Below, in pieces: positions 56,544 through 62,620 of a stretch of 64,000 nt of DNA. Source of the stretch: Sulfurisphaera javensis (GTDB taxonomy: Archaea; Thermoproteota; Thermoprotei_A; Sulfolobales; Sulfolobaceae); the NCBI RefSeq assembly GCF_041154675.1, contig NZ_AP031322.1, positions 1,550,001 to 1,614,000 of the forward strand. Direction: 5' to 3'. The notes beneath the pieces were generated by a model that was not told the origin of the DNA, ran no database searches, and was given only the letters and a program-made list of their open reading frames with translations. How positions within the stretch are numbered: the first letter of the stretch is position 1; the number at the start of each line of letters is the position of its first letter. The position numbers and the translations under genes are program-made.

Positions 56544-58127
56544 GTGGAAAGTGTAGGCATAGTACTACAGAGAGGTGAGAATAATAGCATTTCTGCTCTT
56601 CTTAAAGCAGACATTGAAATTACTAGCGGACAACTTTTCCTTATTGAAGATGGAAGTAAGAAAACCGTAGTTAGGCTTGATGAGTATTCTTACATTAATG
56701 AGTTCTTTGATGAGAAAGCCCCTTTCAGTAAGACATTATTAAATGATAAAATTGACGTTGAATTACTCCATATGAACACAGTAATAAAGGCTGAAATGTC
56801 TATAGTAAAAAGATATAATCATTCTTCAGTACCCAAGCCTGGGTCAATTGTTAAGTTATTACCAGAAATAAAAGATGAAAAAGATCTACTTTCATTTTAT
56901 CAAATTCCTTCTCTTCAAGGTTACATAGAATATGGAAGACTAGCTGGATCAAAAATTCCCCTTTTACTTGATTTAAATGCAATAACTATGCATATAGGTA
57001 TCTTTGGTGAAACTGGAAGTGGAAAAAGTTACAATATGAGATATTTAATCACACTTCTTTCTAACATAAAGCTAGGTGATAAATTAACTGCAATACCAAT
57101 GATAATAATTGACGCTAATGGTGATTATTCTGATTTCACTTCCTTTAACATTGATTTAATTAGCGGTGGTAGAGGATGGATAAAGAAATATGTGATGAGA
57201 GATACTCTAAGTGATGCTGAAGTAAGGCTTTCCATTGACCTTTCATTATTTACAGCCAAAGACTTAGCTGACTTCATAATTTCATTAAAATATGGTGACT
57301 CAGCTCCAAACTCTCTTCAATCTAACTTATTAGAACAAGTTTTACTTCAGCATGATCCTCAAGAGTATAATTGGCTTTTAGGCAGCAGAGAAGGGATAGA
57401 AGCTTTAAAAACGGAGCTTGAAGAGCTAAAAACTTCGGGCTTCAGTCCTAGTACTATAAGAGCAGTTAATAGTTCATTAGAAGTCTTCTATGGAAAGGTT
57501 AAAAAGTACAATCTTGTCTCTTCATCTTCATCTATAAATGAACAAACTTTAGATGTAATTTGGAATACAAAAGGATTAGGAATAATAGACTTCTCCTCTG
57601 ATGGATCTCCAGGGGTAGATATTTCAACTAAACAGTTAATAGTAAGTTACATTGCACGTTTAATTCTTGATTATCTTACTAAGTCTAAGTATTCTGGGAA
57701 GCAAAAGCTCTTAGCCTTAGTAATCGAAGAGGCACAAAATTATATTCCTTCAAGCGATTATCCAGTAAATGCAAGAATAACTAAAGATGTATTAGTAACA
57801 TTAGCGACACAAGGAAGAAAGTTTGGTGTTTCACTATTCTTAGTTTCACAGAGACCAGCATTTGTTGATAAGTACGTTTTATCAATGCTTAACACTTTCT
57901 TTTTCCACAGGATTTATCATGAGGACGTTAAATATGTTATGTCAGCAACTGGAGGTTTACCAGAACATTTGTCAAAAAGCTTACCCTCATTGGACACTGG
58001 TTATGTAATAGTGTCTGGATTAATGTCAGCCTTAAGATCGCCAGCATTAGTTAAGATACCATGGGATGATAGGATTGGATCTTACGCTGGTTACGTTTCT
58101 GATATAGAAAGCATTTTGGTGGGTTAA
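56544..58127 (+). CDS. HerA-like DNA translocase / DUF87 ATPase
   Basis: A 527-residue HerA-FtsK ATPase. An N-terminal HAS-barrel-like domain (about 1-125) precedes Walker A GETGSGKSYN (155-164), IIIDANGDYSD (187-197), Walker B LLALVIEEAQ (389-398), ATQGRKFG (421-428) and sensor-like LVSQRP (433-438). HerA proteins form hexamers that pump DNA for NurA nucleases. First gene of a tight four-gene operon ending in a NurA-like protein; starts with GTG. A canonical repair HerA sits beside mre11 and rad50, which are absent here. Confidence 0.9.
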   Translation: MESVGIVLQRGENNSISALLKADIEITSGQLFLIEDGSKKTVVRLDEYSYINEFFDEKAPFSKTLLNDKIDVELLHMNTVIKAEMSIVKRYNHSSVPKPGSIVKLLPEIKDEKDLLSFYQIPSLQGYIEYGRLAGSKIPLLLDLNAITMHIGIFGETGSGKSYNMRYLITLLSNIKLGDKLTAIPMIIIDANGDYSDFTSFNIDLISGGRGWIKKYVMRDTLSDAEVRLSIDLSLFTAKDLADFIISLKYGDSAPNSLQSNLLEQVLLQHDPQEYNWLLGSREGIEALKTELEELKTSGFSPSTIRAVNSSLEVFYGKVKKYNLVSSSSSINEQTLDVIWNTKGLGIIDFSSDGSPGVDISTKQLIVSYIARLILDYLTKSKYSGKQKLLALVIEEAQNYIPSSDYPVNARITKDVLVTLATQGRKFGVSLFLVSQRPAFVDKYVLSMLNTFFFHRIYHEDVKYVMSATGGLPEHLSKSLPSLDTGYVIVSGLMSALRSPALVKIPWDDRIGSYAGYVSDIESILVG

Positions 58128-58128
58128 A

Positions 58129-61017: not shown

Positions 61018-61643
61018 TGCAACTAATTGAATTGGTCGAATTAATTTCTTCTAAAAAGAGAGAGTTTAGTAAGGATAAAATAGAATATGAGTTAAGGAAA
61101 ACTCTTAATGATCTTTCTAGTTTAAGAAAATCTTTAGAGAAAATTAGGGATATAAAGGGCAAAATGCTATTCTGCAATGACTTAATAAAAGATGAGAAAG
61201 AAAGAATACTTAACTCTAATGACCCAGAATACATCTCTAAATTGATTGATATTATGTATGAAAAAGTTATTGCTTGTTATAGGAAAATGGAGGAAGAAAA
61301 AAGAAAGAAAATAGAAGAAGAAACTAAAGAAATAAGAGAGATTAATACAAAACTTTTACTTTATAAGAAAATATTAAAGAATATATTTAATGAAAATATC
61401 GATATTTATATGTTAAATGATAAATCAGAAGACTTAGAAGAAGAAATAAAGAAGGGTAAAGAGGAGTTAACTCAACTATATAACGTCTTAAAGTCTAAAG
61501 CAGGTGAAAACTTAGAGCTACTTATTGAATTAGTTGATAATAATGAGATAGAAATAGATAGTAGAAACTATGATGAAGTAATAGAATTAATAAAATTTTT
61601 AGTAAGCAAAGGAATTTCTCTGTCTTTAAGGTTTTCAAAATGA
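61017..61643 (+). CDS. Coiled-coil protein, 208 aa
   Basis: Highly charged, Lys/Glu/Ile-rich. Long helices with heptad character cover about residues 10-60 and 75-160 (for example RKMEEEKRKKIEEETKEI and SEDLEEEIKKGKEELTQL). The ATG overlaps the stop of the 962-aa gene by one base, and its own stop overlaps the NurA-type start (ATGA). Probably an adaptor or structural partner of the large NTPase. No family recognised. Confidence 0.7.
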   Translation: MQLIELVELISSKKREFSKDKIEYELRKTLNDLSSLRKSLEKIRDIKGKMLFCNDLIKDEKERILNSNDPEYISKLIDIMYEKVIACYRKMEEEKRKKIEEETKEIREINTKLLLYKKILKNIFNENIDIYMLNDKSEDLEEEIKKGKEELTQLYNVLKSKAGENLELLIELVDNNEIEIDSRNYDEVIELIKFLVSKGISLSLRFSK

Positions 61644-62620
61644 GTGACATAATTGATAAAATAAAAAAATTAGCAATAGAGGAAAAGGAAAAAGCAAATA
61701 AGTTAAAGGCTGATGTCATTCTCTTGGCTGAAGATATAAGAAAAGGGAGACTGAATATTGAATTCAAAAAAATAGATGAAAAAGTAAATGAACATAACGC
61801 ATGTGCCATTGATGGTGGAAAATACGAGGTTGATCTTGGTGATTCGTATCTAATCATTGCAAAGGCAGTTACTGTTATGGGAAAATACGGTGAAGTGAAA
61901 GAAATTCCTCCTACAATAGTTAGGGATTTTAAAATAATTAGTGACTATTATGGAGAAGATGAGGTTAAAAAACATTCAATATCCTTAATGCTAACTTTAG
62001 AAACTAATTTACTTTCTCGAGCAAATTGCGAAAAGATCTTCATTGACGGGCCTTTACTTGATCCACCAGTTTATGAACCTTCATTAGAAGAATATTTCAT
62101 AGTTAGAAGCAATATTATACAGAAAAAGAAACCTATTGGAATAGTGAAAAGATTTAGTCATAGGATTTTAATTAAAGAATTAGAAAATGAGGGATATAAT
62201 TTATTAAACATGAGGGAAAGTTATCTTGTCACTACCTTAATTATGGAGTTAAGGAAAAATATGAAAAATAAGGATACTGTAATGCTTGGCTGGATAGATT
62301 GGGATGAGGTATTTAAGAGAGGGGAAATTATTTCCGATTTAGAGGGACTAAGTAAGGCTTATCAGAAGTTTAATACTAAAATTTATTCTGCATACTTTCA
62401 GTTAAGTGCTATATCTCCAATAGTAAGAATTGACTCTCTTATTCCTGAAGAGTTAGAGTACATAAAGGCATGGGGAATAGAAGGGGAAAAGGAAGTAACT
62501 ATCTTAAATAAACTTGCTGATAGTTTAGCAAAAATAAAAAATGAGGAAGTTAAGAGTTATGTCACCCTATTTCAATCAATTAAAGGGACTGATTTCTTTT
62601 CATATCTGTCGAGGTTTTAG
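61640..62620 (+). CDS. NurA-domain nuclease
   Basis: A 326-residue protein with the NurA core: CAIDGGKYEVDLGDSYLIIA (Asp58 in the IDG motif), LTLETNLL (Glu121), and FIDGPLLDPP (Asp136), the expected two-metal ligands, then a helical part and IDWDEVFKRGEII. NurA proteins are nucleases that form toroidal dimers on HerA hexamers. It is the last gene of the operon, whose first gene is HerA-like. Its 3' end overlaps the convergent Sso10a-like gene by 41 bp. Confidence 0.85.
   Translation: MSDIIDKIKKLAIEEKEKANKLKADVILLAEDIRKGRLNIEFKKIDEKVNEHNACAIDGGKYEVDLGDSYLIIAKAVTVMGKYGEVKEIPPTIVRDFKIISDYYGEDEVKKHSISLMLTLETNLLSRANCEKIFIDGPLLDPPVYEPSLEEYFIVRSNIIQKKKPIGIVKRFSHRILIKELENEGYNLLNMRESYLVTTLIMELRKNMKNKDTVMLGWIDWDEVFKRGEIISDLEGLSKAYQKFNTKIYSAYFQLSAISPIVRIDSLIPEELEYIKAWGIEGEKEVTILNKLADSLAKIKNEEVKSYVTLFQSIKGTDFFSYLSRF

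Follow-up and report, generated by a model that had tools for sequence, protein, structure and literature searches.

A four-gene operon in Sulfurisphaera javensis probably encodes a second HerA-NurA machine, parallel to the canonical one, in which a AAA+ protein would load or target a dedicated HerA-NurA pair. The operon lies in a 64,000-nt stretch of the genome, referred to as the window. All four genes are on the plus strand: herA (56544-58127; 527 aa), the gene of a large AAA+ ATPase (58129-61017; 962 aa), the gene of a small helical protein (61017-61643; 208 aa) and nurA (61640-62620; 326 aa). A 1-bp gap separates herA from the ATPase gene, which overlaps the 208-aa gene by 1 bp; this gene in turn overlaps nurA by 4 bp, and no stop codon interrupts any of the four frames. 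The coordinates and junctions confirmed the four tightly joined genes described in the earlier note. A CGAGGAAATAC box 5' of the operon (56483..56493, plus strand) was invariant in an alignment of four congeners and is a putative element, with a putative TATA-like stretch downstream of it (~56508-56516, plus strand). The dN/dS between pairs of close congeners ranged from 0.11 to 0.28 for the 208-aa protein and was lower, at 0.04-0.10, for the three larger proteins; these low values indicated that all four genes are maintained, and the operon genes are under purifying selection. Since the gene order also recurs in 18 of the 31 Sulfolobaceae genomes, the operon is not a chance arrangement.

Two other features were noted at the ends of the operon. 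A broken transposase remnant lies just 5' of it (window 55694-56351); three congeners carry transposase-related pieces at the same site, one of them as a 409-aa version. At the 3' end, a gene for an Sso10a-family DNA-binding protein (window 62580-62939; 73.9 bits, cut-off 60) is convergent with nurA and overlaps its end by 41 bp. It holds the same position in the congeners but was not at this position in the other genera that were read.

The two outer genes encode the enzymes that the earlier note had named. Module HerA matched Pfam DUF87, the HerA core, with 130 bits (cut-off 23.2), and carries the motifs GETGSGKS at residue 155, IIIDANGDY at 187, IEEAQ at 394 and SQRP at 435; judged by its sequence, it is an FtsK/HerA-type DNA translocase. 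The Pfam HAS-barrel gave no match to it at E 1, versus 46 bits for canonical HerA. Module NurA matched the NurA domain with 101 bits (cut-off 21). Its residues D58, E121 and D136 were invariant over 16 sequences and aligned with the solved SsoNurA structure 2ygk, so the catalytic acids are intact. In the trees, module HerA formed one clade (SH-aLRT 100), separate from canonical HerA. Module NurA also formed one clade (100), which grouped with other Sulfolobaceae NurA proteins and not with those of Thermoproteales, the deep nodes being weak.

Searches of the genome (2.57 Mb, single contig) for HerA and NurA yielded nine HerA-type ATPase matches and five NurA loci. One locus, L035 (~416,600-422,900), encodes in order HerA (HAS barrel and HerA_C), Mre11 (metallophosphoesterase), Rad50 (SMC-type, zinc hook) and NurA. 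The module is therefore not the only HerA/NurA locus, and it adds to an intact herA-mre11-rad50-nurA operon and does not replace it. Three more pairs of a HerA-type ATPase and a NurA are encoded in the same genome (L037 6178-8611, L036 8096-11003 and L038 7579-10546). The module resembles the canonical operon in having HerA first, NurA last and a large ATPase between them, with related catalytic enzymes; however, it has a AAA+ ATPase and a small helical protein where the canonical operon has Mre11 and the ABC-type Rad50, and its HerA and NurA belong to separate clades; both operons reside in one genome. The shared layout could suggest a duplicated repair operon whose Mre11-Rad50 had diverged past recognition. 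We consider this scarcely credible: the fold of the ATPase is AAA+ and not ABC, its profile aligned with Rad50 over only 23 coiled-coil columns, and the ABC/SMC ATPase with zinc hook and the metallophosphoesterase present at L035 are both missing from the module, whose HerA stands in its own clade. Fold and sequence already refute such a duplicate, and the fold and profile comparison ruled out that the 962-aa ATPase is Rad50 or Mre11. The proposal that the large NTPase and its small neighbour replace Rad50-Mre11 consequently failed, as both sets are present and the ATPase is of another class; what held of the earlier suggestion of an alternative repair machine or defence complex is a real, conserved and undescribed HerA/NurA operon distinct from the canonical one.

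The 962-aa and 208-aa proteins gave no match above cut-off to any Pfam, PADLOC or NCBIfam model. The 962-aa ATPase has Walker A (DWGQGKT) at residue 61, Walker B (LIDEVE) at 102 and TPSAY at 144, and its layout comprises an N-terminal AAA+ domain, a middle alpha/beta domain at about 376-556 and a long helical C-terminus. An AF2 model of the whole protein, built from three sequences, was poor (pLDDT 53.8) and its C-terminal half was not usable. Residues 1-245, with a mean pLDDT of ~65-81 over most of the block, gave VIA Z of 11.3-11.7 with p97 D1 and ORC/Cdc6 chains (rmsd 3.3-4.6 A, ~190-220 residues aligned); ORC/Cdc6 is one of several AAA+ families tied at Z ~11. The modelled N-terminus is thus a AAA+ domain. 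The protein is a AAA+ ATPase, where the earlier note had seen a P-loop protein of no recognised family. Among 13 of its relatives, Pfam BrxC_BrxD was found in four (best E 4.1e-8) and AAA_22 in seven, and two relatives matched PADLOC BrxD; the ATPase of the window itself matched none of these three. The middle domain was modelled separately (residues 376-556; pLDDT 85.6). Foldseek returned nothing at E 0.001 for it, and re-alignment gave a top Z of 5.4 (McrC), with several restriction-nuclease folds listed alongside unrelated folds. No PD-(D/E)XK residues were conserved by our reading of the alignment of this domain. An inactive nuclease-like fold is at most weakly suggested by the model, given the lack of a Foldseek match, the mixed folds at this Z and the missing PD-(D/E)XK residues. 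In our own reading of the sequence, a winged helix may follow the middle domain; wHTH profile matches were obtained among the Thermoproteales relatives of the ATPase only. The 208-aa protein, encoded between the ATPase and NurA in every Sulfolobaceae case, is helical, charged and fast-evolving. A coiled coil, as proposed for it, is plausible given its 41% charged residues, but the heptad signal was not significant (p 0.10).

Within Sulfolobaceae, the module occurs in an all-or-none manner by genus. A search with the 962-aa protein found it in every genome of five Sulfolobaceae genera and in none of the other six (11 genera), and the HerA-ATPase-small protein-NurA order was intact at all 17 loci read from the 18 positive genomes. 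The flanking genes were an identical set in all four congeners and were mostly shared across genera g7 and g11; in g1, g3 and g8 the module occupies other genomic positions. Module HerA of g1 was 64.5% identical to that of g7 (canonical HerA, 66.5%) and 48.6% identical to that of g8 (canonical HerA, 72.1%). These identities, which match between g1 and g7 and drop in g8, indicated mostly vertical descent, with the g8 version either transferred or anciently split. The module is not strictly a housekeeping one, because six genera lack it and its HerA is more divergent than the canonical protein in g8; its absence from 13 of the 31 genomes likewise argues against universally conserved genes. The main text of the S. 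islandicus essential-genome paper does not mention herA. An accessory neighbourhood, as the earlier note had seen it, was not borne out: the surroundings are syntenic in all four congeners, and synteny is fixed within genera. A mobile or viral origin was also rejected, as protein searches of phages and plasmids gave no match to the module and neither did viral contigs in a pattern-based scan.

A gene pair resembling a split archaeosine synthase was also observed, consisting of a TGT-like protein of 322 aa and an ArcS-like protein of 195 aa (L048 4834-6361, with relatives at L188, L189, L190, L191 and L192). Of the 31 genomes, the 18 with the TGT-like gene are precisely those that carry the module. 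In g7 and g11, the pair lies next to the module at every locus read but that of G016. It probably serves tRNA modification; TGT genes occur in BREX-related capture systems as well.

The ATPase profile was searched against 398 genomes of the phylum. Two large-protein matches outside Sulfolobaceae were followed, G298 and G130; other weak matches were short and lay in smaller frames. Both genes proved to be in operons with nurA, although adjacency to nurA played no part in finding either. Read from the HerA end, the order in G298 is HerA-NurA-ATPase (1196 aa)-292 aa, with every gene on the minus strand; in G130 it is ATPase (946 aa)-180 aa-NurA. Within its class, 41 of 81 genomes carry the G130-type ATPase, among them 25 of the 43 well-assembled ones; by count from our table, no well-assembled genome of families f20, f29 and f63 lacks it, and these three families account for all 25. 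Beyond G130, the ATPase gene was followed by a NurA-family gene in one operon at all 15 Thermoproteales loci inspected, with a small gene between the two; the one at L112 had been missed by ORF picking. Profile comparison matched the Sulfolobaceae ATPases with those of Thermoproteales (E 5e-8, 140 columns) and with the G298 ATPase (E 1.4e-7, >100 columns), the controls being 0.1 for unrelated AAA proteins, 0.17 for HerA and 0.005 for Rad50. This homology across orders is confined to the ATPase core, over 105-140 columns. The NurA profiles of Sulfolobaceae and Thermoproteales matched at 5.6e-11. The linkage of this ATPase family with NurA is thus recurrent, and it may have arisen more than once, because the HerA and NurA trees separate the Sulfolobaceae and Thermoproteales partners. 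A common origin of HerA and NurA in the two groups was not supported by the trees, whose deep nodes were weak, and one for the small proteins was rejected at an hhalign probability of 0.4%.

The Thermoproteales ATPase-NurA operon is without herA. Stand-alone herA genes of ~525-560 aa were observed in Thermoproteales (L138, L141, L144, L147, L150, L153 and L155). They are probably the unmatched herA group that Bernick et al. listed for this order (PMC3396285), and that group may belong to the ATPase-NurA operon, for which the unpaired HerA is by elimination a candidate partner. The G298 HerA grouped with the unpaired Thermoproteales HerA (95, long branch).

Several further genes adjoin the ATPase in these genomes. 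One gene away from it in G298 lies the gene of a 437-aa protein (L072 10509-11822) whose PCNA-like sliding-clamp domain scored 85 bits with an archaeal PCNA model. Such a clamp was rejected as a general partner, as it adjoins the ATPase in G298 only and the neighbour in G356 shares the C-terminal part but not the clamp. In Thermoproteaceae, genes for a GNAT acetyltransferase, a MinD/ParA-like ATPase and an SbcD-related phosphoesterase adjoin the large ATPase gene (L073 10479-12521), and this trio recurs in most of those loci.

We found no description of a HerA-large AAA+-small protein-NurA combination in the main texts of open-licence papers, and compared the module with the closest designs described. 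HerA/FtsK capture systems (Rakesh, Aravind and Krishnan 2024, PMC10853773) couple HerA to an ORC/Cdc6-like ATPase that bears an inactive nuclease domain, and include a second protein as nuclease. BREX-related capture systems (BrxC/BrxD, DUF6079) have added BrxC-like ATPases, with HerA in a capture variant (PMC12839542). The module follows the logic of the first design, with a HerA translocase, an ORC/Cdc6-like AAA+ protein and possibly a nuclease domain without activity that follows the AAA+ core. In an innate anti-invader system of this type, the ATPase would sense foreign DNA, HerA would seize and pump it and NurA would destroy it. The weak BrxC/D-like signature among the ATPase relatives and the weak match of the middle domain to nuclease folds agree with this explanation, which we nevertheless regard as rather unlikely. 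The module nuclease is NurA, of RNase H fold, and not a restriction nuclease; the word NurA does not occur in the text of PMC10853773. The seven window proteins scanned gave no match to an REase profile, and none to PglZ, a methylase or other BREX genes. The mobile neighbourhood of capture systems is likewise missing: the order of genes around the module is constant within a genus, no copies were found in plasmids, phages or viruses, and there were no known defence genes among the neighbours examined. In addition, the distribution is not sporadic within genera: none of the 18 genomes in the five positive genera lacks the module, and its Thermoproteales counterpart is carried by 25 of 25 well-assembled genomes of three families. 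The nurA-csm6-herA cluster of Thermoproteales (PMC3396285) is similar in being an additional HerA-NurA paralogue pair beyond repair; unlike the module, it is CRISPR-linked and has no large AAA+ protein.

Import of DNA by Ced/Ted has been proposed to use HerA-NurA for making single strands (PMC9905601), and CedD is encoded in the genome (L039, 610.9 bits, cut-off 600). The module could accordingly prepare or digest DNA taken up or donated via Ced, which we think improbable: CedD lies at a separate locus, and the S. acidocaldarius-like genome G023 has a CedD-type HerA but no module.

We therefore return to a second HerA-NurA machine under a AAA+ protein. Pumping and digestion of DNA by HerA-NurA are established for other archaea, and the role of the pair is disputed between end resection and degradation of foreign DNA, with antiviral use suggested (PMC12977600). 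In the mechanism that we infer for complex formation, loading and DNA substrate, the HerA ring would pump duplex DNA into the NurA dimer, which would degrade it. The AAA+ ATPase, distantly BrxC/BrxD- and ORC/Cdc6-like, and the small helical protein, in the operon positions of canonical Mre11-Rad50, would recognise particular DNA and load or license HerA-NurA on it. Maintenance of cellular DNA (ends, stalled forks or imported DNA) is somewhat likelier than dedicated defence, because inheritance is fixed and core-like and the module was not found in viruses or plasmids; since the closest described designs are defensive, defence keeps some probability, as does a RecBCD-like mixture of roles.

More broadly, and only tentatively, the module may represent a kind of DNA machine so far unrecognised in archaea, with a BrxC/D- and ORC-like AAA+ ring protein controlling a HerA-NurA shredder in place of Mre11-Rad50. 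Such a class would be widespread in Thermoproteota and would belong to the core of Thermoproteales and of five Sulfolobaceae genera; HerA-capture immunity would either descend from it or be a case of convergence. The unpaired herA genes of Thermoproteales gain a candidate NurA partner. A second conserved HerA-NurA operon with its own AAA+ partner offers a direct route to separating repair from defence, and the positive genera probably include the genetically tractable Saccharolobus.
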